DNA of 64,000 nt, taken from the NCBI RefSeq assembly GCF_034555935.1, contig NZ_JAYDCJ010000003.1, positions 868,001-932,000 of the forward strand, given 5' to 3'. This DNA comes from Marinobacter qingdaonensis. GTDB taxonomy: Bacteria > Pseudomonadota > Gammaproteobacteria > Pseudomonadales > Oleiphilaceae. The notes beneath the pieces are model-generated. The model searched no databases, was not told where the DNA came from, and saw only the letters and a list, made by a program, of their open reading frames with translations. Numbering within the stretch: the first letter of the stretch is position 1; each line of letters starts with the position of its first letter. Of this stretch, positions 1-58,067 are shown piece by piece. The translations under genes were made by a program, and so were the position numbers.

Positions 1-252
1 GCCGAGAATTGCCAGGTGCTGTTCGTGGGCAGTGCCAAGAGCCGGGATCTGCCGTCCATCACCCGCTACGCCGAAGAGCGTCGAATGCTCACCATCAGTG
101 AGATCCCCGAATTTGTCGACGAGGGCGGCATCATCGGTTACGTGAAGGAAGGCAACGTGATCCGGTTCGAGATCAATCTGCAGGCCGCCCAGCGCGCGGG
201 GCTGCAGATCAACTCCCGGTTGCTGGAGCTGGCCTTGAGGGTGATCCGATGA
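1..252 (+). CDS. YfiR family (DUF4154) protein, C-terminal part
   Basis: The reading frame is open from base 1 and ends at a TGA at 250-252, so only the last 83 residues of a gene that starts outside the window are present. The pattern (VLFVGSAK near the left edge, TISEIPEFVDEGGIIGYV, then RFEINLQAAQRAGLQINSRLLELA) is what I recognise as the C-terminal half of DUF4154/YfiR. YfiR proteins are periplasmic and in Pseudomonas repress the cyclase YfiN. Here the stop overlaps the start of a histidine kinase (ATGA at 249-252), so the two are translationally coupled and probably functionally paired. The N-terminal signal peptide cannot be seen. Confidence 0.85.
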   Translation, partial: AENCQVLFVGSAKSRDLPSITRYAEERRMLTISEIPEFVDEGGIIGYVKEGNVIRFEINLQAAQRAGLQINSRLLELALRVIR

Positions 253-1706
253 GCAATCGCTGGCGTTGGCAATACTGGCCACTGAAAGCCAAGCTCGTCT
301 TTTTGACCCTCTCAATCAGCACCCTGGGCATCCTGCTGGTGTGTACCAGTCTGATCGTGGTGGAAAACCGCACCTACGAGGAGCAGCTGGAATCGGAGCT
401 GATGGTGCTGTCGGGGATCCTGGCGGAACAGTCGGCCGCGGCGCTGCTGTTCGAAGACAGTCAGCAGCTTGCCACCATCATCTCGAGCCTGCGCAAGATC
501 GAAACCATCGAACAGGTCTGCGTGTACAACACGGCGGGCGATGTCATGGCGGAGCTGAACAGTGCCACCAGTGCCACCTGTCCCAATCTGGCAACCCCGC
601 CTGAAGTCGGGTTTGTCGGCGATTACTACCGCCTGCTGGAGCCGGTGACCCTGGACGGCGACACCGTGGGCCAGTTGTACCTCATGTCGCGACTGGAAGT
701 GCTGCGGGAGCACATCCGCACCTTCATTCTCATGGCCTTTACCATCGGCCTGACCATCCAGGTGGCCCTGGTCTGGGTGGCGTTCCGGCTCCAGCGCCTG
801 GTGTCCGAGCCGATTTCCGAACTGTCGTCCGCGGCCGAACAGATTGCCGTCAACCACGACTATTCCATCCGGGTGCCGGTCTATGGCAAGGACGAACTGG
901 GTCGACTGGGCAACGCCTTCAACGAAATGATCGGCACCATCGAGCACCAGAACCGGAAAATCCTGGCCAGTCGCGATGAGCTGGAACGCACCGTTGCGGA
1001 CCGAACCTCGGAGCTGAGCCTGGCCAACCGGGAGCTGGAAGCGTTCAGCTTTTCCGTCTCCCACGACCTGCGCCAGCCCCTTCGTGCCATCGAGGGCTTT
1101 GGTCAGGCCCTGGAGGAGGATTGCCGAGGCCAGCTGAACGACACCGGGCTGGATTACCTGTCGAGAATTCGCGCCGCCACCGTCCGGATGGGTGGCCTGA
1201 TTGACGGCCTGCTGGTGCTGTCCCGGGTCAGTCGTCAGGCCATGGAAATCCAGAAACACGACCTGAGCGCCATCCTTGAGGAAATTGTCGAGGAGCTCCA
1301 CGCCACCAGTGACGATCGGCCCACCGAGGTGACCATCCAGCCGGGTATTGAGGTGGTCGGCGATGGCCGGATGTTGCGCATTGCTTTCCAGAATTTGCTG
1401 GCCAATGCCTGGAAGTACTCCTCCAAGGCCGACATACGCAAGATTGATGTGTCAGCCTGTGAATCCCACGGCAGTATTACCGTGGCCATTCGCGACAATG
1501 GGGTGGGCTTCGACATGAAATATGTGGATAAGTTGTTCGTCGCCTTCAATCGTCTGCACACGCCCGCGGAGTTCAGTGGTACCGGGCTGGGGCTGGCGAC
1601 CGTGGACCGTGTGGTCCGCCGGCACTTCGGCGAGGTCTACGCCGAATCGTCAGTCGACAACGGAGCGTGCTTCTATGTAAAGTTCCCGGCCTCCGTGCAG
1701 AAGTAG
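249..1706 (+). CDS. Sensor histidine kinase with CHASE8-like periplasmic sensor and HAMP
   Basis: A 485-residue inner-membrane kinase. A first membrane segment lies at about residues 14-38, a periplasmic domain at 39-155 with the pattern typical of CHASE8 (SAAALLFEDSQQLATI), a second membrane segment at about 157-178, then HAMP, a coiled coil and HisKA with His272 (FSVSHDLRQPL). The ATPase domain shows an N-box near 382-390, DNGVGFD near 416 and GTGLGLA near 444. The DLRQPL form of the H-box resembles phytochrome-type kinases. It overlaps the YfiR-like gene by 4 bases and precedes two response regulators, which are its likely partners. YfiN proteins carry a similar periplasmic sensor, so this looks like a YfiR-controlled sensor wired to a kinase instead of directly to GGDEF; that link is inference. 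Confidence 0.93.
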   Translation: MSNRWRWQYWPLKAKLVFLTLSISTLGILLVCTSLIVVENRTYEEQLESELMVLSGILAEQSAAALLFEDSQQLATIISSLRKIETIEQVCVYNTAGDVMAELNSATSATCPNLATPPEVGFVGDYYRLLEPVTLDGDTVGQLYLMSRLEVLREHIRTFILMAFTIGLTIQVALVWVAFRLQRLVSEPISELSSAAEQIAVNHDYSIRVPVYGKDELGRLGNAFNEMIGTIEHQNRKILASRDELERTVADRTSELSLANRELEAFSFSVSHDLRQPLRAIEGFGQALEEDCRGQLNDTGLDYLSRIRAATVRMGGLIDGLLVLSRVSRQAMEIQKHDLSAILEEIVEELHATSDDRPTEVTIQPGIEVVGDGRMLRIAFQNLLANAWKYSSKADIRKIDVSACESHGSITVAIRDNGVGFDMKYVDKLFVAFNRLHTPAEFSGTGLGLATVDRVVRRHFGEVYAESSVDNGACFYVKFPASVQK

Positions 1707-1801: not shown

Positions 1802-2263
1802 ATGGGAATGGAACACTATTCGATTCTGGTGGTTGAGGATAACCCGGACGATCAGATTCTGACGATGCGTGCGCTCCGGAACGCGAGCCCCGATAGCACC
1901 ATCATCCTGAAAGAGGATGGCCAGGCTGCACTGGACTTCCTGTTTGGCAATGACGCCAGCCCCCGCTCTGCGCAACTGGATTCCCTGGGTGTGATCCTCC
2001 TGGATTTCAAACTGCCGAAGGTGACCGGGCTCGAGGTCCTGCGCCGCATTCGGTCCTGCCCCGATACCGACTGGCTGCCGGTGGTGATGGTGACCTCCTC
2101 GGACGAACCCCAGGAATTGCGAGAGGCTTACCGGTTGGGGGCCAACAGCTTTGTTACCAAGCAGATTGACTATAGTAAGTTTAGCGAGCAAATGACTGTA
2201 CTCGCTCAATATTGGTTGACCGTGAATAAAGTTCCCATGGTCGGGGCTTCCCGGTCATTTTGA
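1802..2263 (+). CDS. Single-domain response regulator (Rcp1-like)
   Basis: A 153-residue CheY-type receiver with no output domain. The acidic pocket is VVEDNPDD near residues 10-17, the phosphoacceptor is Asp68 in ILLDFKLP, and the switch and lysine are in MVTSSDE and FVTKQID. The extended region between helix 2 and the phosphoacceptor strand and the LPVVMVTSS form are typical of Rcp1-type regulators that pair with phytochrome-like kinases, which fits the H-box of the kinase 95 bases upstream. A GGAAG lies just before the ATG. It probably takes phosphate from that kinase and may pass it on or act as a sink. Confidence 0.93.
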   Translation: MGMEHYSILVVEDNPDDQILTMRALRNASPDSTIILKEDGQAALDFLFGNDASPRSAQLDSLGVILLDFKLPKVTGLEVLRRIRSCPDTDWLPVVMVTSSDEPQELREAYRLGANSFVTKQIDYSKFSEQMTVLAQYWLTVNKVPMVGASRSF

Positions 2264-2270: not shown

Positions 2271-3971
2271 GTGCTGGTGAGTAAAACGAATGGTCGCCTT
2301 CGATTGTTAATGGTAGAGGACTCAGAAGATGATGCCTTCTTCCTGCTGCGCGCGTTGAAGAAAGGTGGCATCGAACCTCATTACCAGATGGTGGCCAGCG
2401 AGAGCGCGATGGAGTCCGCGCTCATGGAAGAGACCTGGGATATTGTCATCACCGACCACAACCTGCCGGGGTTCACCTCGTTTCGGGTCCTGGAGCTGGC
2501 CCGCAAGCTGGCACCCGACCTGCCCGTGATCATCGTGTCCGGACTGATTGGTGAAGACGTCGCGGTAAGCGCCATGAAGGCGGGCGCCCAGGATTACATC
2601 ATGAAGGACAACCTGGCGCGCCTGATTCCCGCCATCCATCGGGAATTGCGGGAAGTGACCGTGCGACTGGCGAAAAAGCGGGCCGAATCCACCCTGGAGC
2701 ACATGGCGTACCACGACAGCCTGACCGATCTGGTCAACCGTCGTGAATTTGAGCGCCAGCTGAGCCAGGCCCTGCACGATTCCAGAAAGTCGGTCCGGGA
2801 GTGCGTCCTGCTGTACCTGGACCTGGACCAGTTCAAGATCATCAACGACACCTGCGGCCACATAGCCGGCGACGAGCTGTTGAAGCAACTGGCCAAGCTG
2901 CTGGGCCAGAACCTGCGTTCCGACGATACCCTGGCGCGCCTGGGGGGCGACGAATTCGGCATACTGCTGCGCGGCTGCGACGCCGCCGACGCCCGCAAGG
3001 TGGCCGAGTCCCTGTGCGAGGAGGTGCGCGAGTACCGCTTTGTCTGGGAAGACCGGCCCTTCGCGGTGTCCCTGAGCATCGGCATGGTCATTGTTGGCAG
3101 CGAGTACCAGACTGCCAGCGAACTGCTCAGCCACGCCGATCTGGCCTGTTACGCCGCCAAGGACCGGGGTCGTGACAATGTGCAGGTCTATGAAACCAGC
3201 GATCGGGACATGCAGCAGCGCCAGCGCGACATGCACTGGACCAGCCGTCTCCAGGGCGCGTTGCAGACCAACGACTTTTTCCTGTGCCACCAGGAGATGG
3301 TGGCGCTGCAGGAGTCCAGCGCCGACGGTTTCCGCACTGAATTTCTGGTCCGGCTGCGGGAGGGCGACGACGTTGTTCCGCCAGGCGCCTTCATTCCGGC
3401 CGCGGAACGCTTTGGCCTCATGCCCCGGATTGATCGCAAGGTCATCGAGCTGGCGTTTGACTACCTGGATCGCAGCGGCCTTGGCCGGGAGTCCTCGGGC
3501 ACCTTCTTCATCAACCTGTCCGGTGGTTCCCTGAGCGACGGCGAGCTGTTCAGTTTCATCCGGGCCAAGGTCAAGGAATTCTCGATCCTGCCTAATCGCA
3601 TCTGTTTCGAAATCACCGAGACCTCCGCCATTGCCAACCTGAGCGACACCATCGGATTCGTCGAGCGGGCGCGGAACGAGGGCTTCAAATTCGCCCTCGA
3701 TGATTTCGGCTCGGGCATGAGCTCGTTTTCGTACCTGAAAGCGCTGCCCATTGATTACCTGAAAGTCGACGGCGGGTTCATCCGGAATCTGCTCGAAGAC
3801 CCCATCGACATGGGAATTGTCGATGCCTGCAATCGCATCGGCCATGCGGCCGGCCTGAAAACCATTGCCGAGTTTGTGGAAAACGACGAGGTCAAAGAGT
3901 GCCTCCGGAAACTCGGTTTTGACTACGCCCAAGGTTATGGCATTGCCAAACCCGTCCCTTTGAACCAATAA
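2271..3971 (+). CDS. Response regulator with GGDEF and EAL domains (cyclic-di-GMP turnover)
   Basis: A 566-residue cytoplasmic protein that begins with GTG 7 bases after the preceding receiver gene. Receiver at residues 10-125 with Asp62 (VITDHNLPG). GGDEF domain with an intact GGDEF at 225-229 and an RxxD inhibitory site (RSDD) five residues before it. C-terminal EAL domain: the signature reads EFL instead of EAL, but the catalytic glutamate is kept, as are the FINLSG asparagine, the EITET acidic pair, DDFGSG, and the downstream lysine, glutamate and glutamine motifs. Both making and breaking cyclic-di-GMP are therefore possible. Phosphorylation by the upstream CHASE8 kinase is the likely control. 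Confidence 0.93.
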   Translation: MLVSKTNGRLRLLMVEDSEDDAFFLLRALKKGGIEPHYQMVASESAMESALMEETWDIVITDHNLPGFTSFRVLELARKLAPDLPVIIVSGLIGEDVAVSAMKAGAQDYIMKDNLARLIPAIHRELREVTVRLAKKRAESTLEHMAYHDSLTDLVNRREFERQLSQALHDSRKSVRECVLLYLDLDQFKIINDTCGHIAGDELLKQLAKLLGQNLRSDDTLARLGGDEFGILLRGCDAADARKVAESLCEEVREYRFVWEDRPFAVSLSIGMVIVGSEYQTASELLSHADLACYAAKDRGRDNVQVYETSDRDMQQRQRDMHWTSRLQGALQTNDFFLCHQEMVALQESSADGFRTEFLVRLREGDDVVPPGAFIPAAERFGLMPRIDRKVIELAFDYLDRSGLGRESSGTFFINLSGGSLSDGELFSFIRAKVKEFSILPNRICFEITETSAIANLSDTIGFVERARNEGFKFALDDFGSGMSSFSYLKALPIDYLKVDGGFIRNLLEDPIDMGIVDACNRIGHAAGLKTIAEFVENDEVKECLRKLGFDYAQGYGIAKPVPLNQ

Positions 3972-3989
3972 CGCAGACCGAACAGGTGA

Positions 3990-5750
3990 GTGTCGTCTGC
4001 AGCGACAACCGGTGGTACCTATCCAATGCTTGAGTGCGGTGATCTGATTCTGCGATACCTGGAGCGTATGGGGGTCCGTTATGTGTTCGGCGTGCCCGGC
4101 GGAAGCATTGAGCCCCTCTACAACGCGCTGGCCCGGAGCGAGCGCCGTGGCGGAATCCGCGCGGTCCTTGCCCGCCATGAGACCGGTGCCGCCTTCATGG
4201 CTGATGGCTACGCCCGCGAAACGGGCCTGATTGGCGTCTGTTGCGCCACCGCCGGGCCGGGAGCGACCAATCTGCTCACGGGGGTCGCCAACGCCTACGC
4301 TGACAATGTGCCTATGTTGGTCATTACGGCGCAGACCTCGCTCAACCGCTTCGGCCAGGGTGCGTTCCAGGAATCATCCTGCACCGGCGTCAACACCATG
4401 GACATGTTCGCCAGCTGCACCCGCTACAACACCTTCGTCTCGCACCCTGAACAACTGGAAACCAAGCTGCTGCACGCCTTCAGCCACGCGCTCGGCCAGC
4501 AGCCCGGCCCAGTGCATCTTTCCATTCCGCTCGACGTCATGCGCCACGAGGTCGAGGACTCCTCCTACAGCCCGTTCCGAAAGCCTTTTGTGCCCAATGA
4601 CGTGATACCCGACCCGGTCACGGTCCAGAGCGTGGTGGACGACCTTGCTGACATCAAGCAAGCGACTATCGTGCTGGGTGAAGACGCGGCAGACTCGGCC
4701 GATCAGTGGGTCCAGCTGGCCGAGCTCAGGGGCTGGAACCTGGTCACCACGCCCCGGGCCAAGGGACTGGTGAACAGCTTTCACCCGCAGAACCGGGGAG
4801 TGTTCGGGTTTGCCGGTCACCAATCGGCCACAGAGGCGGTAGGGCCCCAGGACGCGGAACGGGTCATCACGGTTGGTGCGGCCCTGGATGAGGTGTCCAC
4901 GGCCGGCTGGAGTCCCGATGGCCTGCTGTCCGAACGCCTGATTCACCTGTCGAGGAACCCGGGGCACCTGGTTCGCGCCATCATGGCCGGTCACGCGGTG
5001 TTGGGCGATCCTCGAAGTGTCGCCGACCAACTGCTGGCCGCCGCCCGGAAAACGGGGCTCCCGGCTCCGGCTCTCAAGGCGCATGGCAGTGATGGCGTGC
5101 CGGATTTCGTCGGCGGGAACTTCCGGGAGGGGTGTTTTGCGACGTCCGGGCCGATCAAGCCCCAGGCGCTGATGACCTACCTGAGCAGGGTCTGTCCCGA
5201 ACAGACGCGGGCCCTGTTTGATACCGGGAATAGCTTTTTGTGGGGCATTCACCACTGGAATGTCGGGCGACCCGAGCAGCCCCTGTGTTCGAAGAACCTG
5301 TTCAACATCGGCATCGGATTCGCCGCCATGGGCTGGGCCATCGGCGCCTCGGTGGGTATGGCCCTGGCCGACGACAGCGTGCCGGTGGTCTGCGTGACCG
5401 GCGATGGCAGCTACCTGATGTCCGGCCAGGAGTTGGCGACGGCGTCCCAGGAGAACTGCAACGTGCTCATGGTGGTGCTGAACGACTCGTCACTGGGCAT
5501 GATTCGGCACGGTCAGGCGCTTGGCGGCGCCGAACAGATTGCCAACGAACTGCCCTCGATCAATTACGCGATGATGGCGGAAGCCCTGGGTGTGGAGACC
5601 TACCGGGTCAGCACCCTGGAAGAACTCCATCGGCTTGATCTGGCCTCGATATTGGCCCGCCCGGGCCCCTGCCTGCTCGATATCCTGGTGGACGGGAATG
5701 AGGTGCCGCCAATGGGCGTCCGAATGAAAGTACTCAACGAAACAAAATAA
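3990..5750 (+). CDS. Thiamine-diphosphate-dependent enzyme, acetolactate-synthase-like
   Basis: A 586-residue protein with the three-domain layout of the acetolactate synthase/benzoylformate decarboxylase superfamily. The N-terminal pyrimidine-binding domain has FGVPGGSIEPL and the activating Glu64 (RHETGAAFMADGYAR). The C-terminal diphosphate-binding domain has GDGSYLMSGQE near residue 470 followed by the Asn at about the expected spacing (VVLNDSSLG). GTG at 3990 is used; ATG at 4026 is an alternative that keeps the whole fold. The gene is followed after 11 bases by two citrate-synthase-like genes, with no acetolactate synthase small subunit, so branched-chain amino acid synthesis is unlikely. 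Substrate unknown. It looks catalytically competent for thiamine-diphosphate chemistry. Confidence 0.85.
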   Translation: MSSAATTGGTYPMLECGDLILRYLERMGVRYVFGVPGGSIEPLYNALARSERRGGIRAVLARHETGAAFMADGYARETGLIGVCCATAGPGATNLLTGVANAYADNVPMLVITAQTSLNRFGQGAFQESSCTGVNTMDMFASCTRYNTFVSHPEQLETKLLHAFSHALGQQPGPVHLSIPLDVMRHEVEDSSYSPFRKPFVPNDVIPDPVTVQSVVDDLADIKQATIVLGEDAADSADQWVQLAELRGWNLVTTPRAKGLVNSFHPQNRGVFGFAGHQSATEAVGPQDAERVITVGAALDEVSTAGWSPDGLLSERLIHLSRNPGHLVRAIMAGHAVLGDPRSVADQLLAAARKTGLPAPALKAHGSDGVPDFVGGNFREGCFATSGPIKPQALMTYLSRVCPEQTRALFDTGNSFLWGIHHWNVGRPEQPLCSKNLFNIGIGFAAMGWAIGASVGMALADDSVPVVCVTGDGSYLMSGQELATASQENCNVLMVVLNDSSLGMIRHGQALGGAEQIANELPSINYAMMAEALGVETYRVSTLEELHRLDLASILARPGPCLLDILVDGNEVPPMGVRMKVLNETK

Positions 5751-5761
5751 GCGGACTCAAC

Positions 5762-6592
5762 ATGACGACCGAGTATCAGTATTACTCCTACATCTGGCAG
5801 GAAGAACCCGAGCCTGCCAACCCTTTCGCGGCCCGCGCCTGTTATTGCCGTGGCTACGACGTCTACGGCGACGTCATCCCGAACGCCGGCTGGTTCGACT
5901 ACCTGCTGCTGCTGTTCAAGGGCGAGCGACCTGCCAAGAGTGACACCGCCTTGCTGGAGAAGCTGGCCATGGTGCTGGCCAACGTCGGTCCGCGTGAGGC
6001 CAGTATTCGAGCCGCCATGAACGGCGGTGTTGCCGGGACCAACCACAGCTCGGCACTGATGGCCGCGCTGGCGGTGGGCGGCGGCCAGTACGGCGGGTCC
6101 CAGGAGCTTTCCATCTGCATCAAGCTCTGGGGCGAGTGCCGGTTTGATCTGGAGAGCTGGCGCAACCGGTTGCTGAATCCCGATGACGACGAGCGCGCGG
6201 ATATCTGGTTGCCGATGGAGCACGCTCCCGGCTTTGATCCAAACGGCGACGTAACCCCGACTCCGATCCTGCAGTCCCTCGATTTGCTTTCGGCCTTGGC
6301 GCCCGCTGACGGGGCGCTGGCCTGGCTCAAGCAGAACCGGGAGGCCCTGGAGCAGCATGTGGGCTACCCGCTGGCGATGAGTGGGCTGGCGGCAGCGGCC
6401 ATGGTTGACCTGGGCCTGAACGAAGACCAGGGCAACATGCTGTACTTGTTCCTGAGACTCCCGGGCGCGGCCGTGCACGCACTGGAGCAGAAGCAGATGG
6501 GTTGGAAGAAGTTTCCTTTTTACGGCCCGGCCATTGAACTCGACGAGAGCGCAACTGACAGCGGCAACGGCCAGGAGGCAACCAACCAATGA
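5762..6592 (+). CDS. Citrate-synthase-fold protein A, catalytic residues apparently missing
   Basis: A 276-residue protein whose pattern follows the second half of citrate synthases (Pfam Citrate_synt, often labelled citryl-CoA lyase): SSALMAALAVGGGQYGGSQE aligns with the GPxHGGANE loop and AMSGLAAAAMVDLGL with NVDFYSGIILKAMGI. In that hand alignment the first catalytic histidine is Tyr110, the GFGHR loop is not recognisable (nearest text is GFDPNGD), and the catalytic aspartate is absent. It is shorter than ordinary citrate synthases (about 370-430 residues). It starts 11 bases after the thiamine enzyme and overlaps protein B by ATGA, so the two probably form a hetero-oligomer. A CoA-thioester or acyl-binding role is possible but unproven. 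Confidence 0.75.
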   Translation: MTTEYQYYSYIWQEEPEPANPFAARACYCRGYDVYGDVIPNAGWFDYLLLLFKGERPAKSDTALLEKLAMVLANVGPREASIRAAMNGGVAGTNHSSALMAALAVGGGQYGGSQELSICIKLWGECRFDLESWRNRLLNPDDDERADIWLPMEHAPGFDPNGDVTPTPILQSLDLLSALAPADGALAWLKQNREALEQHVGYPLAMSGLAAAAMVDLGLNEDQGNMLYLFLRLPGAAVHALEQKQMGWKKFPFYGPAIELDESATDSGNGQEATNQ

Positions 6593-7386
6593 GCCACAAG
6601 CGACTGCTGGAAACCGAGAAACACTGGCTCACCCGTAAGGGCAAAGCCTACCTGACCGACCGGGTGGTCGTGCACGGCAAAGACCTGCACCACGAGCTTG
6701 GAGACTACGACTGGATCCACCTGTACCTCTACGTGATCCTGGGGCGTGACCCGGGGGTCAACGTGGCCAAGCTGCTTAATTCGTTCTGGGTGTCCACCAG
6801 CTATCCGGACGCCTCGATCTGGCCGAACCACGTCACGGCCCTGGCCGGCACGGTGCGCTCCACCGCGTCGCTGTCACTGATGGCGGGTATGAGTGTCTCC
6901 GAGGCCTCCATCTACGGTCGTCGGCCGGAAGTCCGGGCCCTGGATTTCTTCAGGCGCGCGGCCAAGCACTGCGACGCGGGTGGCGATCTGGTGGAATTCA
7001 TCGACGCGGAGAAGGCGGCCGGGCGCACCTTGTACGGCTATGGCCGCCCCCTGGCGCCAACCGACGAGCGCATTCCCTATACCCTGGCCAAGGCCAAGGA
7101 GTTTGGCCTGGACGGCGGCCGCCATCTGAAAATGGCGTTGGACATGCACGCCTACCTGAACGAGAAGTACGGCTATTCGATGAACGTGGCTGCAGTGCAT
7201 GCCGCGCTGGTGGCCGACATCGGGCTGAGCTGTCAGGATTACCAGACGTTCCTGACCCCGGTGTTCGTCACCGGCATGGCGCCCTGTTACCAGGATGCCC
7301 GGGACCGGCCCGTGGGCAGCTTTTTCCCGGTGCGCTGCACCAACATCGTCTACGATGGGCCGGCTAGGCGTAAGTGGGGCGACTAA
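6589..7386 (+). CDS. Citrate-synthase-fold protein B, catalytic residues apparently missing
   Basis: A 265-residue paralogue of the preceding protein. HVTALAGTVRSTASLSLMAG followed by SIYGRRPE aligns with the citrate synthase segment ending in GPLHGGANE, putting Tyr109 at the first catalytic histidine. GYGRPLAPTDER at about residues 150-161 aligns with GFGHRVYKNYDPR, putting Arg153 at the second histidine. MNVAAVHAAL at about 198-207 aligns with NVDFYSGIIL, putting Ala201 at the catalytic aspartate. The structural glycines and the C-terminal FTPVF...YDGP pattern are kept. It overlaps gene A by 4 bases and its stop overlaps the stop of the convergent TonB receptor gene. It ends the operon. Confidence 0.75.
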   Translation: MSHKRLLETEKHWLTRKGKAYLTDRVVVHGKDLHHELGDYDWIHLYLYVILGRDPGVNVAKLLNSFWVSTSYPDASIWPNHVTALAGTVRSTASLSLMAGMSVSEASIYGRRPEVRALDFFRRAAKHCDAGGDLVEFIDAEKAAGRTLYGYGRPLAPTDERIPYTLAKAKEFGLDGGRHLKMALDMHAYLNEKYGYSMNVAAVHAALVADIGLSCQDYQTFLTPVFVTGMAPCYQDARDRPVGSFFPVRCTNIVYDGPARRKWGD

Positions 7387-9506
7387 AACTGGTACTGGGC
7401 TTCCAGGTACGCTGAACGCCCCGGCATCGGGAAATCGCCGGGGATTTCCGGCCTTGGGTCGGAGTAGGGGCTGGGGCTGCGAACGTCCGCATTGAAGGCG
7501 TTTCGGACCGATAGGGCGATATCGAAACCACGCCATAGGCCAACGGTGCGGGCGGTGACATCCACCGTGGTGTAATCGTCCACCGGCTCCCGAGTGTCGT
7601 TCGGGCTTCGTTTTTGCTCGCCGACCCAGTTCACCTGGGTGTTCAGCGCCCACTGGCTGGCGACCTGCCACTCAACCCGGGCGTACGCCTGGTGATTGGG
7701 GGCATCACCCACCGACTCGTCGCTTTCCTCATCCGTCGCCCGCTGGTAGGCGTAGTTGGCGGTCAGGTTCAGGTTGTCCAGGGCCTGATAGCTGGCTTCC
7801 AGTTCGCCACCATGACCTTTTCGCTTGCCGGAGTTCTGGTATTGACTGGCATTGGAGCCGGCCACGGGCTCTGCGTTAATCAGGTCGTCAATTTCGTAGT
7901 AGAAGATGTTCACGCCGTAGAACAGCCGCGTGCTGGCCTGGTAACCGAGGGCCAGTTCGATGGTGTCGATGGTTTCCGGGTCCAGGTCGTCGTTACCCGC
8001 CAGTACCGGGTTGTTGGCGGCGTACTGCTCGTTCAGGGACGGTGCGCGGAAGGCGCGGCCATAGAGCAGCTTGGTGGTCAGGTTGTCGGTGGTGGCCCAC
8101 ACCAGCGCCGCCCGGGGGTTTACGGTCTCGCCAAAATCGGCGTAGTAGTCGTAGCGCAGCCCGCTCACCAATTGCCAGTTCTGGGCAAACTGCCATTCAT
8201 CCTGGACAAAGGCGTAATAGTTCTTCCGATCTTCCTCGGGCATCCAGACCTGGTCCGGGTCGTCAGAGACATCGACCACCTGCCCCTTGGGGCTGAAGTC
8301 GGTGTTGAAGTTCTTGCTCTCGGATACCTCGTAGAGGTCGGCCCAGAAGGCGCCGATGCCGAAATTGACGCGGTGGCTGTCGAAATTGCTGTAGATGGCA
8401 CTCAGGTCCACTCGGGCCTGGCGTTCCTTGTAACCCGGGCTGCCCAGAAAGCCGTCCGGGAAGGCGCCGCCAAAGGCCCCCGGCGGGTAGAGGAAGATGT
8501 CGTTCTCGGGTTCCTGGGTGATGTTGAAAAAGCTGATGCGCGATTCAACGTCCAGCCCGTCCGCCAGTTCCAGCCAGCGGTAGCTGTAATCCACATTGAT
8601 GCGCTGGGACTTGTAGCGGCCCTCGGGGTCCAGGGCCTGGGCGAGGCCCGGCCCGGTTCCCAGGTTTCGCCGGTCCTGAATGCCGGCCCTCAGATCCCAG
8701 TTCGAGCCATTCACTTCCAGCCGGGCGTCGAAACTGTCCGCAGAAGTGTTCACCGGCCCCGGTGCCAGTGACGCCGAGGTGTTGAAGGTTTCGTCGAAGT
8801 TGGTCTGGGCGTCGCGGTCGACGGTTTCGCGCCAGCCGTCGGTGGTCTGGTGTTCCAGCACCAGGCTGATGTCGGTGCTGTTGAGGGTGGTGGCGGCTTC
8901 AACCCAGGCCGCCTTGGTGTCAAAGCTGCCCACCCGTGCGCCGGTCACCACGCCATCAATGTCCTGGGCGTTTTTGGTGATGATATTGATCACCCCGGCG
9001 TAGGCGTCGGCTCCGTACAGGGCCGACCCCGGTCCGCGAATCACCTCGATGCGCTGAATCGCTTTCACCGGCATGCCGCCCCAGGTGTTGCCCCGGTTAC
9101 CGAACATGGCTGTCGTGGCTGGTACGCCGTTGATCAGCAGCAGCGCCTGGGGATTCGAGGTGGAGGTAATGCCGCGGAAGATGTACTTGGGGGCAAAGGC
9201 CTGGTCGGAGCGATTGACGTGCAGGCCGGGTACCGTTTCCAGCACCTCGTCCAGGTCAGTGGCGCCGATGGCTGCGATGTCCTCGGCGCTGATTACAGAC
9301 GTTACCGCGGCGGCCTTGTCGAGGGGCGTGGCGGTGCCGGAAGCAATTGAGACCACCCGAATCTGGCCCAGTTCCTCCAGCGAGATGTCCCAGAGCGTAT
9401 CGTCGGCGCTATTGGCCAGGGCCGGCGTAAGCCAGCAGAGGGCTGAGATCCCGAGCCAGTGCCTTGCTCTCATAAGGGCATTCAATGGGCCGTGTTGAAG
9501 GGGCAT
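7383..9506 (-). CDS. TonB-dependent outer-membrane receptor
   Basis: A 707-residue receptor. I place the start at the ATG at 9506 because it gives a classic signal peptide (hydrophobic GISALCWLTPALA ending near residue 31); the frame is open further upstream but that part has no signal-like character. The mature protein opens with DISLEELGQIRVVSIA, then the plug domain (AAVTSVISAEDI, VPGLHV, YIFRGI, IEVIRGPGSALYGADAYAGVINIITK) and a long beta-barrel ending in the terminal phenylalanine of outer-membrane proteins. Substrate is not readable; the plug resembles the generic colicin I/catecholate/cobalamin type. It is convergent with the thiamine enzyme operon, overlapping it by 4 bases, with no TonB-ExbBD or transporter genes nearby. 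Confidence 0.93.
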   Translation of the reverse strand: MPLQHGPLNALMRARHWLGISALCWLTPALANSADDTLWDISLEELGQIRVVSIASGTATPLDKAAAVTSVISAEDIAAIGATDLDEVLETVPGLHVNRSDQAFAPKYIFRGITSTSNPQALLLINGVPATTAMFGNRGNTWGGMPVKAIQRIEVIRGPGSALYGADAYAGVINIITKNAQDIDGVVTGARVGSFDTKAAWVEAATTLNSTDISLVLEHQTTDGWRETVDRDAQTNFDETFNTSASLAPGPVNTSADSFDARLEVNGSNWDLRAGIQDRRNLGTGPGLAQALDPEGRYKSQRINVDYSYRWLELADGLDVESRISFFNITQEPENDIFLYPPGAFGGAFPDGFLGSPGYKERQARVDLSAIYSNFDSHRVNFGIGAFWADLYEVSESKNFNTDFSPKGQVVDVSDDPDQVWMPEEDRKNYYAFVQDEWQFAQNWQLVSGLRYDYYADFGETVNPRAALVWATTDNLTTKLLYGRAFRAPSLNEQYAANNPVLAGNDDLDPETIDTIELALGYQASTRLFYGVNIFYYEIDDLINAEPVAGSNASQYQNSGKRKGHGGELEASYQALDNLNLTANYAYQRATDEESDESVGDAPNHQAYARVEWQVASQWALNTQVNWVGEQKRSPNDTREPVDDYTTVDVTARTVGLWRGFDIALSVRNAFNADVRSPSPYSDPRPEIPGDFPMPGRSAYLEAQYQF

Positions 9507-9864
9507 GGAGGGGCCTCTCAGCGATACTGCTCTGTTCTGTTGAGTCGGTGGTGCTGTTTTAGTTTTTCTCAGGCAACCGGTGCGCGAAACAATCGAGCGT
9601 TTGGCTATATTCGGCTGCTGGTTAGAGACTAACTTTCTAAACGGGAGTTTAGACTTATTTAATGTGTAAGCAAACCAAAGAGGCCGATTAGGCCAGATTC
9701 TGGCCCGGGAATTCTTATTCAGATGTTTCAACTGGTTAGGCCTTAGTGAAAAGCGTCACAGATTTGACGAGCGGAGGCGAAACCCGACTCGATTGGCGAT
9801 AGACTGATCAAAATTTGTCACATTGTGGTCATGGAGCAGGGGCAGCGGGCAGCCGCGTTTGGTG
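9507..9864. promoter_or_regulatory. Divergent promoter region with an 18-base palindrome
   Basis: No gene is supported in these 358 bases. The region separates the minus-strand TonB receptor from the plus-strand small secreted protein, so it should hold both promoters. It contains a perfect inverted repeat at 9636-9653 (TCTAAAC, four-base spacer, GTTTAGA), about 130 bases upstream of the receptor start and inside an AT-rich patch. An operator for a dimeric regulator is one reading; it does not obviously match a Fur box. Confidence 0.4.
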
Positions 9865-10333: not shown

Positions 10334-10645
10334 TCAGGCCGCGGCCGGATCGGTCACCGTCGCCGAATCAAGCACTTCCTCGTAGAAAAACGCCAGGGCC
10401 TGGGTGGCCTGGTTCAGGCGTGCCCGGGACACATGAATCCGGTCCCGAAGGTAAGACAGAAACATCTGGCGGTCTTCGCTTTCCAGCATCTCCACTTCCT
10501 TCAGGTCGTGGAACAGCACAAAGCGGGAAATCCAGTGCAGGTAGGTCTGCTCGGCGCGCTGGTTCAGGTGTTGGTTGCGAAGGGCGTTTTTTACTCGGCC
10601 AATCAGGCCAGGCTGGGCTTGTTCCAGTGCCTCGATAATATCCAT
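10334..10645 (-). CDS. Stand-alone integrase-type SAM-like (core-binding) domain protein
   Basis: 103 residues, preceded by a GGAAG ribosome binding site. The protein matches the N-terminal core-binding domain of integron/phage tyrosine integrases: QHLNQRAEQTYLHWISRFVLFHD followed by a middle helix, DRQMFLSYLRDRIHVSRARLNQATQALAFFYEEVL. In complete integrases this domain clamps DNA and is followed by the catalytic domain with Arg, His and Tyr. Here the protein stops after a short Ala-rich tail and the flanking DNA encodes no catalytic domain. It could be a remnant of an integrase or a small DNA-binding protein with its own role; the clean start and stop favour a kept gene. Confidence 0.7.
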   Translation of the reverse strand: MDIIEALEQAQPGLIGRVKNALRNQHLNQRAEQTYLHWISRFVLFHDLKEVEMLESEDRQMFLSYLRDRIHVSRARLNQATQALAFFYEEVLDSATVTDPAAA

Positions 10646-20128: not shown

Positions 20129-23053
20129 TCAGTCTTTTATGGCGCGAACCTCCAGCCGGTTCCGGCCATTTTGCTTGGCGGCGTAGAGGGCCTGGTCGGC
20201 CAGCCGCAGGAATTGGGCCGGGGAGTCGTTGGGGTCGGGCACGCCGGTGGCCAGGCCAATGCTGATGGTCAGGCTGATCTCCTGGCCGGCAAACACGGTG
20301 GAGCAGTCGGCGATGGCGTTGCGGAAGCGGTCCAGCCGATCAATGATTTCCTTGCGGTTCTGATAGGTGGTGAACACCACAAACTCCTCGCCGCCGAACC
20401 GCGCCAGGCGGTCGGTTTCGCGTCGGAAATGCCGTTTCATCATCTCGGCCAGGGTCTTCAGGCAATGGTCGCCGGCTTCGTGGCCGTAAGTGTCGTTGAT
20501 CGCCTTGAAGTGGTCGGCATCGACCATAGCCACGGCAAAGCCATCGTGATTGCGCTGGCACCACTGGAAGCTCTTGCGGAACTCCCGGTCGAAAAAGCTG
20601 CGGTTACCGAGTTTGGTCAGGTTGTCGGTCACGCTCAGGCGGGCCAGGGCGTCGTTGGCGTTGGCCAGTTCCCGGTTCAGGCGCTTGAGTTTGCGGTTCC
20701 AGTAGAACAACAGGGCGGCGCCAATCAGGCCAAGGGCCAGCACCTGCCAGACCAGGGTGTAGTCCACCGATTGCTCAATCTTGATGTTGCGCCAGTAGGC
20801 CCTGAGGCTGGCCCGCTCGTCGGCGGTCAGGGTTTCCACCAGCTTCTGCATAATGTCCAGCAGCATGGGTTCGTCGCTGCGGGTGGCAATGGCAAGGGCC
20901 CAGTCGGCCGGGATGCGGCCAATCACTTTCACGTCCGCCAGTCCCTGTTCCTGCATCTGGTAGCTGGCGGAGGCGAGGTTGGTGACAAACCCCGCCAGTT
21001 TTCGCTCCTGCAGCAGTTTCAGGCCGTCTTTCTCGGTGTCCACCTCGACGAATTGTAATTTGGGGTAGCGGTAGCGAAGCAGCTCCGTGAAGGCGTAGTT
21101 CTTGACCAGGCCAACCTGGCCACCGGCCAGATCACCGACGTTTTCGATGAAGGGCGCTTCGATGCGCCCCAGGACTATGTTGGGCACCCGAATGTAGGCG
21201 TCGGTGAAATTCAGGTATTGGGCACGCTCCGGCGTTTTCATGGCCATGGACAGGATGTCGCACTCACGCTCCTGGATGGCCTCAAGGCTTTCGGTCCAGG
21301 AGTCTGTGGGCACCCGTTTGAAGCGAATGTTGCCGCGCTCGCTCAGAACCCGTAGCACCTCGGCGGACACGCCCACGTGGGTGTCGGAATCGTCCAGCCC
21401 TTCCAGCGGCAGCCACTCGTTGTCAATGCAGTAGGGGATGGTTCGATTCCGGTCGCTGAGCCAGGCCTCTTCCTCTGGGGACAGCTTGGGCTTCGCCCGG
21501 CTGGGGCTGTCCTGAACCCCCGAGGCCCCCAGCCAGCGGTTCTCGATGGTGCGCTTTTCGGTGTCACTGATGGCCGCCAGGGCCTGATCCAGAATTTCGG
21601 CGACCGGCGCCAGGGATTTGCGAACGCCAAATCGCAGGTCCTCTCCGGGTTGGTTCTCAAACACCAGCTCGCCGGCAATGCGCACGCCGGGAATCCTCAA
21701 TTCCTGAATCCAAAAGTTGCCGTTGGGGAGCGCCGCCAGAACCGCATCCACCCGATCATGCTCCAAGGCTCGGAACATGGCCTCCTGGGAGCTGAAAACC
21801 TTGGCGGCTTCCCCCAGCTCTTCGACGACCCGGCGTTCGTAGTATATGTCGGCCGCTAATCCAACCTCGTAGCTGCGCAGGCTGCTGAGGCCCCGGTACT
21901 CCAGCCCGCCATCGCGGGTGAACACCACGTTGGGAATGATGTAGTAGGGCTCAGTAAACTGAGCAAATGTCTGTCGATCTTCGGTCTGTGACATGTTGGC
22001 GAGAACATCAATGGAGCCTTCCCGAAGCATGTGCAGCAGATCAGGCCACTCTCCGGCCACGGGCGTCACTTGCAGGCCGGTCAAATCGGTCAGGCGGTTG
22101 AGTACATCCACCGTTAGCCCCTGGAACTTGTCGCCATCGCGAAAGCTGAATGGGGCGTAGTCTTCCATGAGGCCAACCCGAACCGGGCCCAGTTCAGACA
22201 GGAAAATCCGTTGGCGGTCACTCAGGCGAAAGCTCTCGGGTTCGCTGATGCTGGCCCCGCCAAACTCCCGCCAGCGTTGCAATAACAAGTTTCGGCGGGA
22301 TTCGGGGATGGCGGCCAAGCCAATCTGGATGCGTCGGAACAGTTCCGGCTTGTCCCGTTTGACCCCGATTCGCAAATCCTCCTGAGCCTGGGGGCCAAGG
22401 GGGGCTGGCCCTGCGATCTCGAGAAAATAGAAGCCGGCGGCGTTGGCCTCATATTTCAGGCTCAGTCTGGGCCCCAGTACCATATCGACCCAGCCGAACG
22501 CCAGGGCGCGCACCAGGCTGGGAATGGAGTCGTACACGTTCACGGCGATGCCGTTCTGTTCCAGCACCTTGTGGTAATACGTGCCCTCAATGATACCGAC
22601 GGTCCGGCCTTGCAGGTCGGCGAGTCCGCCGATGTTTCCCAGGGGCCGATTGCTGTCCTGCATGAGGTAGGTTTGGCGGATGTGGTAGGGGTCGGTGAAC
22701 AGAATCTCTTCGGCCATGTCTTCCCGGTAGGAAATGGCATCGATGGCGTCCAGCTCGCCGCTCAGGAAGGCGGCGTAAAGCTCGGGCCAGTTCCCGGCCC
22801 GGAATTCGAACTCCAGGCCGCTGTTGATCGCCACTTCTTTTAGGATATCGGCGGAAAAACCGGAGGTGGCGCGGCCCTCGAAAAAGGAATAGGGCTTGTT
22901 GTCGGCGACCACACCAACCGACACCCTCTCGGAGGGCGCCGGGGGTTCTTCGCCGCTGGCGGTTTGCAGGTTGAACGCGACGATGAGGGCTAGAAAAGCA
23001 CGCCCCAGACAGGTGAGAAAGCAATGTGAACGGGGGGCGAACCTGTCTCTCAT
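20129..23053 (-). CDS. Diguanylate cyclase with three tandem periplasmic solute-binding domains
   Basis: 974 residues. Signal peptide, then three SBP_bac_3-type modules: residues about 43-270 (SVGVVADNKPYSFFEG...GYSADIL-like FSADILKE), about 290-515 (VRVGLMEDYAPFSFRDG), and about 550-770 (IPYCIDNEWLPLEGL). Each repeats the pattern WPELYAAFLSGELDAI/WPDLLHMLREGSIDVL/ESLEAIQERECDIL. A membrane helix at about 790-808 (VWQVLALGLIGAALLFYW) leads to a GGDEF domain with GGEEF and an RETD inhibitory site five residues before it. It should make cyclic-di-GMP in response to amino-acid-like periplasmic ligands. No transporter genes adjoin it. Confidence 0.93.
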   Translation of the reverse strand: MRDRFAPRSHCFLTCLGRAFLALIVAFNLQTASGEEPPAPSERVSVGVVADNKPYSFFEGRATSGFSADILKEVAINSGLEFEFRAGNWPELYAAFLSGELDAIDAISYREDMAEEILFTDPYHIRQTYLMQDSNRPLGNIGGLADLQGRTVGIIEGTYYHKVLEQNGIAVNVYDSIPSLVRALAFGWVDMVLGPRLSLKYEANAAGFYFLEIAGPAPLGPQAQEDLRIGVKRDKPELFRRIQIGLAAIPESRRNLLLQRWREFGGASISEPESFRLSDRQRIFLSELGPVRVGLMEDYAPFSFRDGDKFQGLTVDVLNRLTDLTGLQVTPVAGEWPDLLHMLREGSIDVLANMSQTEDRQTFAQFTEPYYIIPNVVFTRDGGLEYRGLSSLRSYEVGLAADIYYERRVVEELGEAAKVFSSQEAMFRALEHDRVDAVLAALPNGNFWIQELRIPGVRIAGELVFENQPGEDLRFGVRKSLAPVAEILDQALAAISDTEKRTIENRWLGASGVQDSPSRAKPKLSPEEEAWLSDRNRTIPYCIDNEWLPLEGLDDSDTHVGVSAEVLRVLSERGNIRFKRVPTDSWTESLEAIQERECDILSMAMKTPERAQYLNFTDAYIRVPNIVLGRIEAPFIENVGDLAGGQVGLVKNYAFTELLRYRYPKLQFVEVDTEKDGLKLLQERKLAGFVTNLASASYQMQEQGLADVKVIGRIPADWALAIATRSDEPMLLDIMQKLVETLTADERASLRAYWRNIKIEQSVDYTLVWQVLALGLIGAALLFYWNRKLKRLNRELANANDALARLSVTDNLTKLGNRSFFDREFRKSFQWCQRNHDGFAVAMVDADHFKAINDTYGHEAGDHCLKTLAEMMKRHFRRETDRLARFGGEEFVVFTTYQNRKEIIDRLDRFRNAIADCSTVFAGQEISLTISIGLATGVPDPNDSPAQFLRLADQALYAAKQNGRNRLEVRAIKD

Positions 23054-54828: not shown

Positions 54829-55788
54829 ATGCGTCGTCGCCATTTCATTGGGTTATCCGTTGCTGCGGGGCTTGCGGCGATCGGCCCGTGGGGATGCAGT
54901 TCCGGTCGGCCACTGCGCCTTGGGGTTCACCCATGGATTGGGTATGAGCCTCTGTATCTGGCGGAGGAGTTTGACTGGCTGCCAGAGTCGGTGACGCTGC
55001 TCAAAGGTGAGGCCGCGGCCGACTCCCTGGCGCGATTGCAGGCCGGCGAGCTGGATGGGGCCGCTCTGACCCTGGATGAAGTATTGCGGGCCAAGGACGC
55101 AGGGACCGATCTGGTCGTCGTGGGCGTTACCGATGTTTCAGCGGGCGCGGATGTCCTGGTGGTGCGGCCTCCCATTGACAGTCTGGAGGGGCTCCGCGGG
55201 CAGCGCGTGGCGGTGGAGCTGTCTGGAGTGTCCGGTGTAATGCTGCTCAAAATTCTGGAACGAGCCGGATTGGAACGAGCTGATGTTACTGAGGTGAATT
55301 TGCCTGTGAGCGAGCATGAGTCGGCGTGGCAGCGGGGTGAAGTGGCGGCCTCGGTTTGCTACGAACCGGTGGCATCGGCCCTGGAGGATCAGGGTGGTGT
55401 GCGCATGTTCGACAGTGGCGACCTGCCGGAAACCATCTTCGATGTGCTAGCAGTCACCCGCCGAATGGCGGATGGCCGACCACAGGCCGTGCGTGGAATG
55501 CTGGCAGGCCACTTTGCCGGCCTTCAACACCTGGTGCGAAGCCGCCATGATGCCATCTACCGGATCGCGGGTCGGCAGAACACCTCCCCCGACGCTATTC
55601 GAAGGGCGTTGGCCACGGTGATGCTGCCTGACCTCGCAGCGAATCAGCGCTACCTAGCCACAACGGGAAGGGTGGAAGTGGTTGCTCGCAATCTCGCACA
55701 CCTGATGATACGCGCTGGCCTACTCGGCAAGATGCCGGATTCACGTCCGATCAGTAATCCTGCCTTTTTGCCTCGGAGTAACACTTGA
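54829..55788 (+). CDS. NMT1/SsuA-like periplasmic substrate-binding protein without transporter
   Basis: 319 residues. The N-terminus MRRRHFIGLSVAAGL has a twin-arginine-like pattern, and WGCSS near residue 22 could be a weak lipidation site. The body matches NMT1/SsuA-type binding proteins: RLGVHPWIGYEPLYLAEEFDWLPESV, RLQAGELDGAALTLDEVL, GLRGQRVAVELSGVSGVML. No ABC permease or ATPase is encoded nearby. Its stop codon overlaps the TTG start of a diguanylate cyclase gene (TTGA), so translation is coupled and it likely delivers its ligand state to that protein. Ligand unknown. Confidence 0.88.
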   Translation: MRRRHFIGLSVAAGLAAIGPWGCSSGRPLRLGVHPWIGYEPLYLAEEFDWLPESVTLLKGEAAADSLARLQAGELDGAALTLDEVLRAKDAGTDLVVVGVTDVSAGADVLVVRPPIDSLEGLRGQRVAVELSGVSGVMLLKILERAGLERADVTEVNLPVSEHESAWQRGEVAASVCYEPVASALEDQGGVRMFDSGDLPETIFDVLAVTRRMADGRPQAVRGMLAGHFAGLQHLVRSRHDAIYRIAGRQNTSPDAIRRALATVMLPDLAANQRYLATTGRVEVVARNLAHLMIRAGLLGKMPDSRPISNPAFLPRSNT

Positions 55789-58067
55789 TCGCGCCTCTCT
55801 GGGCGCGGTGTCTGCTTGGTTGGTTGCTGTTGGTGGCAACGATTCCACTCCCGGCCTGGGCCACTTCGCCGGTGACACTGGGTATCTACAATTCACGGTC
55901 TGAAGCCATTATGCGTCTGCGCTTCGAGCCTCTTGCCGATTACCTGTCCCGAGCCATTGGTGAGCCTGTGGAGTTGTTGTTGTTGAGTGAAGCCGAGCTG
56001 GATCAGGCACTTGCTGCTAACCGATTGGATTTCGTTCTGACCAATCCCAGTCATTTCCTGATCATCCGTAGCGAGCGTAGTCTTTCTGGGGTCTTGGCGA
56101 CGCTGAATCGACGTTGGCAAGGGGTGGCCACGGCGAGTCTCGGCGGAGTGATTATAGCTGCGTCAGACCGGGCCGGGGTTGAGGATCTGGCCAGTATCCG
56201 GGATAAAACACTGGTCGCACCGAGTGTGAACTCTCTGGGTGGCTATCTTGCCCAGGCGCTGGAGTTGCAGCAGATTGGTGTGGATATTCGGCGCAGCAAT
56301 CGCATCAAGTTGGTGGGCAGCCATGATCGTGTGATTCGAGCGGTCCTTGCCGGTGATGCGGATGTGGGATTTATTCGCACAGGCATTCTCGAGCAGTTGG
56401 CGCTGACTCAGCCGGAATTGATGTTCAAGCTTGATGTCGTCAACTCTCAGAGGCTTGCTGGATTTCCGTTCATGGCTTCTACGCGCCTCTACCCGGAATG
56501 GCCTTTGGTGGCACTTCCCCATGTGGACGACGACATCGTACGACGCACCGCCTCGGCGTTATTCGCGCTGGAGCCGGATGATCCGGCCGCCCAGGCTGCC
56601 GATATTGCAGGCTTTTTGCCGCCCGCTGATTACCAAGCGGTGGAATATCTGTCCCGGTCACTGAAGGTGCCCCCTTTTGATCAAGCCCCAGAGCTGACCT
56701 GGATCGACGCCTTGCATCAGTATCGTCTGTGGGTGTTTACCATCATGGTGTTGCTCTTGATGCTGGTCGCCAGTTCACTGTGGCTTGCAAAGCGCCGGCG
56801 CCAGCTTCTGAATGAACAACGGCGAACCCGGCGATTGATGATGAGCTGGCCGCAGCCAATGTTGGTAATCCGGCGCGGCGTGTTTGTGGACTGCAACCAC
56901 GCGGCGATAGAAATGCTGGGAGTGGCCAGCCGGGAGGCTCTGATTGGCGGCGAAGTGGCGAGTTTTTCGCCTGAATACCAGCCAGACGGTCAGGACTCGG
57001 AGGCCAAAATGCGGGCCATCATGGCGATGGCGGATGGTGGGCTGGTCTGTCAGCAGGAATGGCTTTTTCGACACTCGGATGGTTCGGACATCTGGGTGGT
57101 CATGACTATCGCACCGGCGCATGAACCCGGTGCAACAAACTCACTATTGCTGTGTTCTTGGCACGATATCACCGATCGGCGACAAACTGAGCAAAGGCAG
57201 AGGTTAGCTGCCAGCGTGTTCGACACAGCGCGAGAAGCGATATTCATTTCTGACCGATACGGCAGGGTAGTCGACGTCAATGAGGGTTACGCCAACATCA
57301 CCCGACAGCCCAAACATCAGGCGCTGGGGAAGTTGCCGCCCTTACCCCTCGGGGAGGGTAGTGGGGTATTCCAGAACGCACGGATCAGTGGCTTCTGGCG
57401 AGGTGAGGTTGTATTTAATAGGACCGATGGAGAGCAGCTGGATCTGGTCCTGACCCTCAGTCGCGTTTGTGACGACACAGGCTCCGTCACGCATTTCATC
57501 GGCATATACAACGATGTCACCGACAGCAAAGCCAAGGAACACGAGCTGCGCACCCTCGCTCACTACGATGCGCTGACGGGCTTGCCCAATCGGGTTCTGT
57601 TTGCCGACCGACTGCAGCAGGGGATGGCGCAGGCTCGGCGCCATAACCTTCGCCTCGCGGTGGTCTATATCGATCTGGACGAGTTAAAACCAGTCAACGA
57701 TACATTCGGGCATGAAGCGGGGGACATGCTGTTGATTGAAACGGCGGAGCGGCTGCAACAGTCCCTACGGGAGGAGGACACCCTGGCTAGAATGGGCGGC
57801 GATGAGTTCACCGCGATTATTCTGAACATCGACAATGAAGCGGACCTGGAACGGCTGTTGTCCCGCATGCTAGTGGCCGTTGCCGAGCCAGTATGGGCCG
57901 GAGATCATCAGGTCGAGATTTCGGCCAGTATCGGCTACACCGTATTTCCCCAGCAGACTGAGATCGACGGGGATCAGTTGCTGTGTCAGGCCGATCAGGC
58001 CATGTACCAGGCCAAGCGGCAGGGGAAAGGCTGTTTTCGCCGGTTTTTTCCGGACATTAGCGCCTAG
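55785..58067 (+). CDS. Diguanylate cyclase with PhnD-like periplasmic domain and PAS domains
   Basis: 760 residues from TTG 55785, with GGAG about 7 bases ahead. Signal/anchor (LLGWLLLVATIPLPAWA), a PhnD-type binding domain about 30-285 (TLGIYNSRSEAIMRLRFEPLADYLSRAIG; LDFVLTNPSHFLIIRS; RIKLVGSHDRVIRAVLAGDADVGFIRTGIL), a membrane helix about 313-333, two PAS domains about 345-575, and GGDEF with MGGDEF and REED as inhibitory site. The second PAS holds an unusual PPLPLGEGSGV insertion near residue 520. Its stop overlaps that of the convergent HD-GYP gene by 4 bases. Cyclic-di-GMP synthesis under periplasmic control is expected. Confidence 0.93.
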   Translation: MIAPLWARCLLGWLLLVATIPLPAWATSPVTLGIYNSRSEAIMRLRFEPLADYLSRAIGEPVELLLLSEAELDQALAANRLDFVLTNPSHFLIIRSERSLSGVLATLNRRWQGVATASLGGVIIAASDRAGVEDLASIRDKTLVAPSVNSLGGYLAQALELQQIGVDIRRSNRIKLVGSHDRVIRAVLAGDADVGFIRTGILEQLALTQPELMFKLDVVNSQRLAGFPFMASTRLYPEWPLVALPHVDDDIVRRTASALFALEPDDPAAQAADIAGFLPPADYQAVEYLSRSLKVPPFDQAPELTWIDALHQYRLWVFTIMVLLLMLVASSLWLAKRRRQLLNEQRRTRRLMMSWPQPMLVIRRGVFVDCNHAAIEMLGVASREALIGGEVASFSPEYQPDGQDSEAKMRAIMAMADGGLVCQQEWLFRHSDGSDIWVVMTIAPAHEPGATNSLLLCSWHDITDRRQTEQRQRLAASVFDTAREAIFISDRYGRVVDVNEGYANITRQPKHQALGKLPPLPLGEGSGVFQNARISGFWRGEVVFNRTDGEQLDLVLTLSRVCDDTGSVTHFIGIYNDVTDSKAKEHELRTLAHYDALTGLPNRVLFADRLQQGMAQARRHNLRLAVVYIDLDELKPVNDTFGHEAGDMLLIETAERLQQSLREEDTLARMGGDEFTAIILNIDNEADLERLLSRMLVAVAEPVWAGDHQVEISASIGYTVFPQQTEIDGDQLLCQADQAMYQAKRQGKGCFRRFFPDISA

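Follow-up and report, generated by a model that had tools for sequence, protein, structure and literature searches.

In Vibrio parahaemolyticus the ScrABC locus encodes an enzyme, ScrA, that makes the unidentified S-signal, which is read by the periplasmic protein ScrB and the GGDEF-EAL protein ScrC (PMC11315295). A different group of described systems joins two 2-oxo acids: in furanolide biosynthesis CybE performs this acyloin condensation, CybF then uses the product with an acyl-CoA, and CsmA and 'BpmA' (the paper's spelling) are named as CybE homologues (PMC12395478); in carbazole pathways the corresponding enzymes are NzsH/CqsB3, and the synthase partner is the KASIII-like CqsB1 (PMC7466098). 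Here we describe a locus found in a window of 64,000 nucleotides from Marinobacter qingdaonensis (contig NZ_JAYDCJ010000003.1, positions 868,001 to 932,000). Its core is a trio of genes for a thiamine-diphosphate (ThDP) enzyme, T, and two citrate-synthase-like proteins, A and B, which lack the His/His/Asp triad of citrate synthase; in most related loci the trio lies beside a TonB-dependent receptor, a periplasmic sensor protein and histidine kinase or cyclic diguanylate (c-di-GMP) genes.

Of the architectures found in print ScrABC is the closest, as an analogy and not a homology. The window and most related loci likewise hold synthesis enzymes, a periplasmic binder and a c-di-GMP output, GGDEF-EAL in the window; ScrA, however, is an aminotransferase, whereas here there are a ThDP enzyme, a citrate-synthase-fold pair, a TonB-dependent receptor and YfiR/CHASE8 or ABC_sub_bind sensors. 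The window also resembles the YfiBNR (YfiR-YfiN) arrangement in that a YfiR-like periplasmic protein stands beside a CHASE8 sensor and c-di-GMP enzymes, but the sensor is a histidine kinase, and the receptor and the T-A-B enzymes are added. A keyword search of the open-licence literature recognised no prior description of the locus.

The pairing of a ThDP enzyme with two altered citrate-synthase-like proteins had been proposed in a sequence-only reading of this stretch; the observation is confirmed, and it is firmer across the family than in the window alone. Searched singly, the window's A and B gave no Pfam match at E <= 1 and only sub-cut-off NCBIfam matches to the citryl-CoA lyase PRK06224; against curated cut-offs A scored 42 bits (cut-off 261) and B 53 bits (cut-off 245). 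Family profiles of 48 members each (50 distinct pairs minus two near-copies) matched the solved citryl-CoA lyase 6hxp at 2.9e-24 for A and 1.9e-17 for B. Pfam Citrate_synt, which the sequence-only reading had named as a check and which the single proteins failed to match, was matched at E <= 0.1 by 43 of the 48 A members and 23 of the 48 B members. AlphaFold models of A (pLDDT 89.6, pTM 0.86) and B (pLDDT 91.6, pTM 0.86) both had 6hxp as top Foldseek match, with TM-scores by query of 0.66 and 0.77, respectively, and rows 1-39 of the matches for A were all citryl-CoA lyase or ATP-citrate lyase. Profiles and models agree with the earlier assignment: both proteins have the citryl-CoA-lyase/citrate-synthase fold. 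Their length of about 270 residues had been read as shorter than that of true citrate synthases; the length is correct, but it is normal for stand-alone citryl-CoA lyases and the ATP-citrate-lyase module (256-279 residues), with which A and B share fold and length and to which they have their best solved relatives. A or B as an ordinary citrate synthase was rejected: the fold is present, but the His/His/Asp set is absent and scores stay below the curated NCBIfam/Pfam cut-offs. The genome's two citrate-synthase genes, both above the Pfam cut-off, are located elsewhere.

In contrast to citryl-CoA lyase and the ATP-citrate-lyase module, A and B have other invariant residues in place of the His/His/Asp set. 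More than one of the three was kept in 0 of 59 A rows and 0 of 63 B rows, while a true lyase included as positive control (L140) kept all three, and none of the registers compared gives a catalytic His or Asp in the window's A or B; an intact triad, which would have contradicted the sequence-only reading, was found in neither. In window A the three sites read Tyr110, PGFDP for GYGHR (His replaced by Pro or deleted, by register) and LAMSG for LNVDG (Asp to Ser), so the earlier statement that A has no recognisable equivalents of the second and third sites was wrong. In window B the first site is Tyr109 by motif and helix register, and Ile or Gly in two other registers; HMMER, hhalign and MAFFT differ by one residue in this column, and the starts of the model helices at 113 (A) and 112 (B) favour Tyr109 as the probable equivalent of the first His. 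At the second site B has GYGRP in place of GYGHR, with either an Arg or a deletion at the His; at the third, MNVAA stands for LNVDG and an Ala has taken the place of the Asp. As the MAFFT column of the second His is off by one residue in L140, the second site is given for both proteins as Pro/Arg or deleted.

Across the 63 B rows the replacements are nearly fixed. Tyr109 is present in 62 (Phe once), Gly110, Arg153 (of GYGRP), Arg161, Asn199 and Cys233 in all 63, Arg261 in 62 and Cys250 in 60 (Val in three); the column of the catalytic Asp is never Asp (Ala 39, Gly 8, Asn 7, Ser 4, Thr 3, Leu 2). The earlier hand alignment of B, with GYGRP in place of GFGHR and MNVAAVH in place of NVDFYSG, is borne out. 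Arg161 belongs to the DPR motif, whose Arg binds oxaloacetate in citrate synthase. The A family is less uniform at the first site (Tyr 16, Leu 16, His 14, Ala 5, Asn 3, Val 2, Ser 1, Gln 1 and Phe 1 among 59 rows), with His239 kept in 58; the proposed Tyr for the first His in both proteins thus holds for the window and for the B family but not for the A family, where 14 of 59 rows keep the His. Loss of the first His alone is not diagnostic, because the aligned ATP-citrate lyase has Phe there. Since the replacements in B are near-invariant, this looks like an altered active site and not decay, and a pseudogene origin was rejected for the family on the same ground; the different C-C bond chemistry suggested earlier is plausible for the same reason. 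Decay is seen in one locus, L110, where T, A, B and the receptor are in fragments. Separately, four single citrate-synthase-like proteins (L072, L073, L139, L141) keep only the middle His, with the first His and the Asp replaced, and have no such T or receptor in the mapped stretch.

A further difference from citryl-CoA lyase and the ATP-citrate-lyase module is that two diverged partners occur here, mostly side by side; in G253 and G193 A is encoded at another place in the genome, and in G235 no A was found. The A and B profiles are linked at an hhalign probability of 98.9, and in a 129-row tree made by a quick method one branch (support 92) set all 59 A rows apart and another (support 100) all 63 B rows. 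In all 60 loci that have a single open reading frame (ORF) for each protein, a count that takes in a few duplicate loci, A precedes B. Pairwise distances over 40 loci, with one Marinobacter kept, correlate strongly between A and B (r = 0.89) and less between A and T (0.48) and B and T (0.44). These comparisons support an old duplication retained as an A-B pair. The earlier expectation that the three genes work together is upheld for A and B as one unit and, for the most part, for T, which is nearby in 55 of 64 loci; T is not strictly required, as three genomes gave no T match at E <= 1e-80. In one genome (G193; L145 and L091) B is split into two parts about 0.5 Mb apart, a 72-residue piece beside A and a frame of 250 residues.

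T contains the N, M and C TPP_enzyme domains of Pfam, and its catalytic residues, the activating Glu and the GDGS...N motif noted before, are conserved among 60 T sequences including the window's (Glu64 60/60, Asp472 59/60, Asn498 59/60). The nearest solved enzymes are BbmA (1.2e-95) and CsmA (3e-82), followed by acetohydroxyacid synthase (AHAS) I at 2.9e-64. The second-substrate pocket of AHAS, in which an Arg binds a carboxylate, is changed in the window's T, with Val302 at the Arg position and Gly508 at the Trp position. The carboxylate-binding Arg occurs in 0 of 60 T rows, and Gly508, at the position of AHAS Trp464, is Gly in 58 of 60 and aligned with the residue altered in the BbmA G484F entry. 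Two relatives of T in the same genome (L154, L155) have the Arg, plus Gln or Trp at the AHAS Trp position, and a branch with support of 100/100 separates them from the 60 T rows. Against the AHAS family TIGR00118 (NCBIfam) T scored 311.6 bits, under the cut-off of 538.35. An ordinary AHAS was therefore rejected: the ThDP domains and the Glu are present, but the pocket Arg/Trp and the family score are not. By sequence, T resembles the alpha-hydroxy-beta-keto acid synthases, and CybE and CqsB3 can be likened to it by their described reactions. In those published pathways such synthases hand their product to acyl-using partners, CybF, which is 3-oxoacyl-acyl-carrier-protein-synthase-like, and the KASIII-like CqsB1 (PMC12395478, PMC7466098, PMC8777810), whereas the partner here would be a citrate-synthase-fold pair. 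In one locus (L077, 7276-9936) T and A are fused in a single 886-residue frame with both full domains, and B follows with a 4-nt overlap; this is a single draft genome, in which a sequencing error removing a stop is possible.

The neighbourhood survey covered 67 mapped loci, which after removal of three duplicates gave 64 loci in 36 families; left out before this count were a 60-residue piece at a contig end (L111), single proteins outside the two clades (L072, L073, L139-L141) and second loci of counted genomes (L142-L146). Within 8.5 kb of B, A was found in 60 loci (61 with the L077 fusion), T in 55, the receptor in 54, YfiR or ABC_sub_bind in 46 and a histidine kinase/GGDEF gene in 50 (the decayed L110 counted). 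When only the 53 loci that extend for 4.5 kb or more on each side are counted, the corresponding numbers were 52, 49, 46, 40 and 43. Six neighbour families recurred in at least 10 of 62 loci: T/A/B, the receptor, signalling domains, ABC_sub_bind, YfiR and an ABC-ATPase (10 loci). The sequence-only reading was right about the trio and its pairing and missed the receptor and the YfiR/ABC_sub_bind sensor with its histidine kinase/GGDEF genes. These counts show, at the level of gene content, co-inheritance of the A-B pair with T, receptor and sensors.

The receptor is dedicated to the locus. The genome has seven TonB_dep_Rec matches, and in a comparison of 54 receptor ORFs of more than 500 residues (the window's own and 53 others, two of them from duplicate loci) the window receptor was the best of the seven for all 53 others, with wide margins, including 240 versus 77 bits in the most distant group. 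In four loci of another class (L131-L134) T-A-B occurs without a receptor. In L133 two genes follow the trio, one of 1727 codons for a kinase that combines Ser/Thr-kinase, AAA, GAF and histidine-kinase domains and one for a LuxR-type regulator; L131 and L134 have long genes of similar sequence, judged by eye, at the kinase position. Here again the enzymes adjoin a sensor and a regulator. Also in this group are a weak, below-cut-off FkbH-like match (L133), a MaoC-SDR protein (L134) and an AMP-ligase (L132).

The same association is seen when whole genomes are compared. Among 58 genomes, B was found in 16 (E up to 5.5e-30), T in exactly those 16 and the receptor in 15, the sole exception being G047, which is 81% complete; the other 42 genomes gave neither T nor receptor at E <= 1e-90. 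Two weaker B matches (2.4e-4 and 6.9e-4) are single citrate-synthase-like proteins. These genomes are related and not independent, as 36 of the 57 others belong to one genus. In wider samples, own genome included, B was matched in 43 of 369 genomes sampled from the class (E <= 1e-10) and in 13 of 398 from the phylum; three of the 13 are single citrate-synthase-like proteins and eight lie outside the class, all with T, A and B. Eight named loci matched by B are all Marinobacter (73-88% identity), and tblastn at E <= 1e-5 found no B match in the plasmid collection.

Because the enzymes are mostly inherited together with their own receptor and sensors, the locus may make the molecule that the cell detects, and its functional frame is probably sensing and not core metabolism. 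The reading we favour, tentatively and at a little short of an even chance, is that T, A and B are the biosynthetic part of a self-contained sensing locus, whose small molecule is captured by the co-encoded receptor and read by the sensors. A and B would form an obligate heteromer of the citryl-CoA-lyase fold in which Tyr109, Arg153, Arg161, Asn199, Cys233 and Cys250 of B, together with residues of its partner A, stand in for His/His/Asp; Arg161 and Arg153 could hold a carboxylate, and Cys233 or Tyr109 could be catalytic. The pair would act on the product of T, probably with an acyl thioester, to give the small molecule. The dedicated receptor would then capture this molecule, and the YfiR or ABC_sub_bind protein would read it in the periplasm and pass the signal to the histidine kinase and c-di-GMP enzymes.

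Several observations weigh against this proposal. Nine loci have no nearby T; for six of them a T match was found at another place in the genome (G047, G193, G235, G253, G402, G363), and the other three genomes (G128, G257, G185) carry A, B and the receptor but gave no match to T at E <= 1e-80. T may be exchangeable, since its distances correlate only modestly with those of A and B and its tree mixes T rows of the two A/B subclades. Ten of the 64 loci are without a nearby receptor (L083, L094, L095 and L131-L134, together with three that are split or reach a contig end, L067, L077 and L091), and two of them (L083, L094) are also without any searched sensor type nearby. The neighbour families shared by at least 10 of 62 loci include no recognised exporter, rarer families being mostly unannotated.

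In an alternative we consider unlikely, the locus serves uptake and use: a compound from the environment enters through the receptor and is reported by the sensors, and once it is in the cell T, A and B cleave or convert it in the lyase direction of ThDP and citryl-CoA-lyase-like chemistry. TonB-dependent receptors usually import, both enzyme folds include lyases, and the presence of the locus is patchy (16 of 58 relatives, apart from the two weak single-protein matches). However, none of the neighbour families present in at least 10 of 62 loci was recognised as an inner-membrane permease, and in their sole ABC family the eight members scanned are mostly ABC-F-type two-domain ATPases, although two single-domain members (L075, L096) could serve transporters. 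The regulators, moreover, are of the histidine kinase/GGDEF-EAL type and not of the one-component catabolic type, and T is closest to synthases.

It is rather improbable, in our estimate, that A and B are a non-catalytic pseudoenzyme pair that binds T or its product and regulates or channels it, like the small subunit of AHAS. The absence of the triad from both proteins, the T-A fusion in L077 and the order T, A, B in many loci are all compatible with such a role. The near-invariant replacements at the old active-site motifs of B nevertheless suggest chemistry or tight ligand binding, A and B are retained without T in three genomes, and A-B distances follow those of T only loosely.

That T, A and B make a small hydroxy-acid chelator whose metal complex the receptor takes up is very doubtful: the nearest solved receptors are indeed the colicin I receptor and ferric enterobactin receptors, but no conserved permease or exporter was recognised in these recurrent neighbour families, and a Fur-box scan, a weak test in which only the best match was scored, spoke mildly against a metallophore, with means upstream of 65 receptor and 66 T ORFs of 11.11 and 11.20 of 19 versus 10.95 and 10.95 in shuffles, and with the window receptor (11) and gene run (12) not above the shuffles' 95% level (12), as three of the genome's six other receptors are. 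The siderophore reading was set aside on this weakly negative scan.

The citrate-synthase fold is the textbook case of His/His/Asp chemistry, and here an old duplicated pair with other near-invariant residues occurs in loci from 36 families. Should the pair be catalytic, the fold would have a second kind of chemistry. Should the sensing proposal hold, a T-A-B mutant would be expected to lose a self-made cue detected by the cell's own receptor, and receptors usually viewed as nutrient importers would act as signal receivers.

In the window the trio stands last in a run of genes that begins with YfiR (Table 1). The coordinates and spacings noted by the sequence-only reading were exact, with an 11-nt gap between T and A and a 4-nt overlap between A and B; the YfiR and kinase genes also overlap by 4 nt, and 18 nt separate the end of the GGDEF-EAL gene from the annotated start of T. 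Relatives of T start near residue 13 of the window protein, so the true start may be the ATG at 4026. The YfiR gene was assigned through a Marinobacter relative (L023, 1169-1714) that matches PF13689 YfiR/HmsC-like at 5.9e-42. No sigma-70-like promoter was found at 3600-7800, which says little because shuffles averaged just 0.8.

Table 1. Genes of the locus, in window coordinates.
Feature	Position	Strand	Remarks
YfiR/DUF4154-like periplasmic sensor gene, 3' part	1..252	+	full gene L165:4735-5253, start 267 nt before window
Histidine kinase with CHASE8 periplasmic sensor and HAMP domains	249..1706	+	domain scan
Single-domain response regulator	1802..2263	+	starts 95 nt after kinase gene; domain scan
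Response regulator with GGDEF and EAL (c-di-GMP turnover)	2271..3971	+	domain scan
T, ThDP-dependent enzyme, BbmA/CsmA-related	3990..5750	+	586 aa, GTG start
A, citrate-synthase/citryl-CoA-lyase-fold protein without His/His/Asp triad	5762..6592	+	276 aa; His239, Glu242 conserved
B, second citrate-synthase-fold protein	6589..7386	+	265 aa; Tyr109, Gly110, Arg153, Arg161, Asn199, Cys233, Cys250 conserved, replacing triad
TonB-dependent receptor, dedicated, convergent to B	7383..9731	-	annotated from TTG; relatives suggest start near 9506

Beyond the receptor gene, a short frame at 10334-10645 (103 aa) holds only a phage-integrase N-terminal domain, and other Marinobacter have a related frame close to this locus. 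Elsewhere in the window are two genes that fuse solute-binding domains to GGDEF, at 20129-23053 (three SBP_bac_3 stretches) and 55785-58067 (Phosphonate-bd with PAS).

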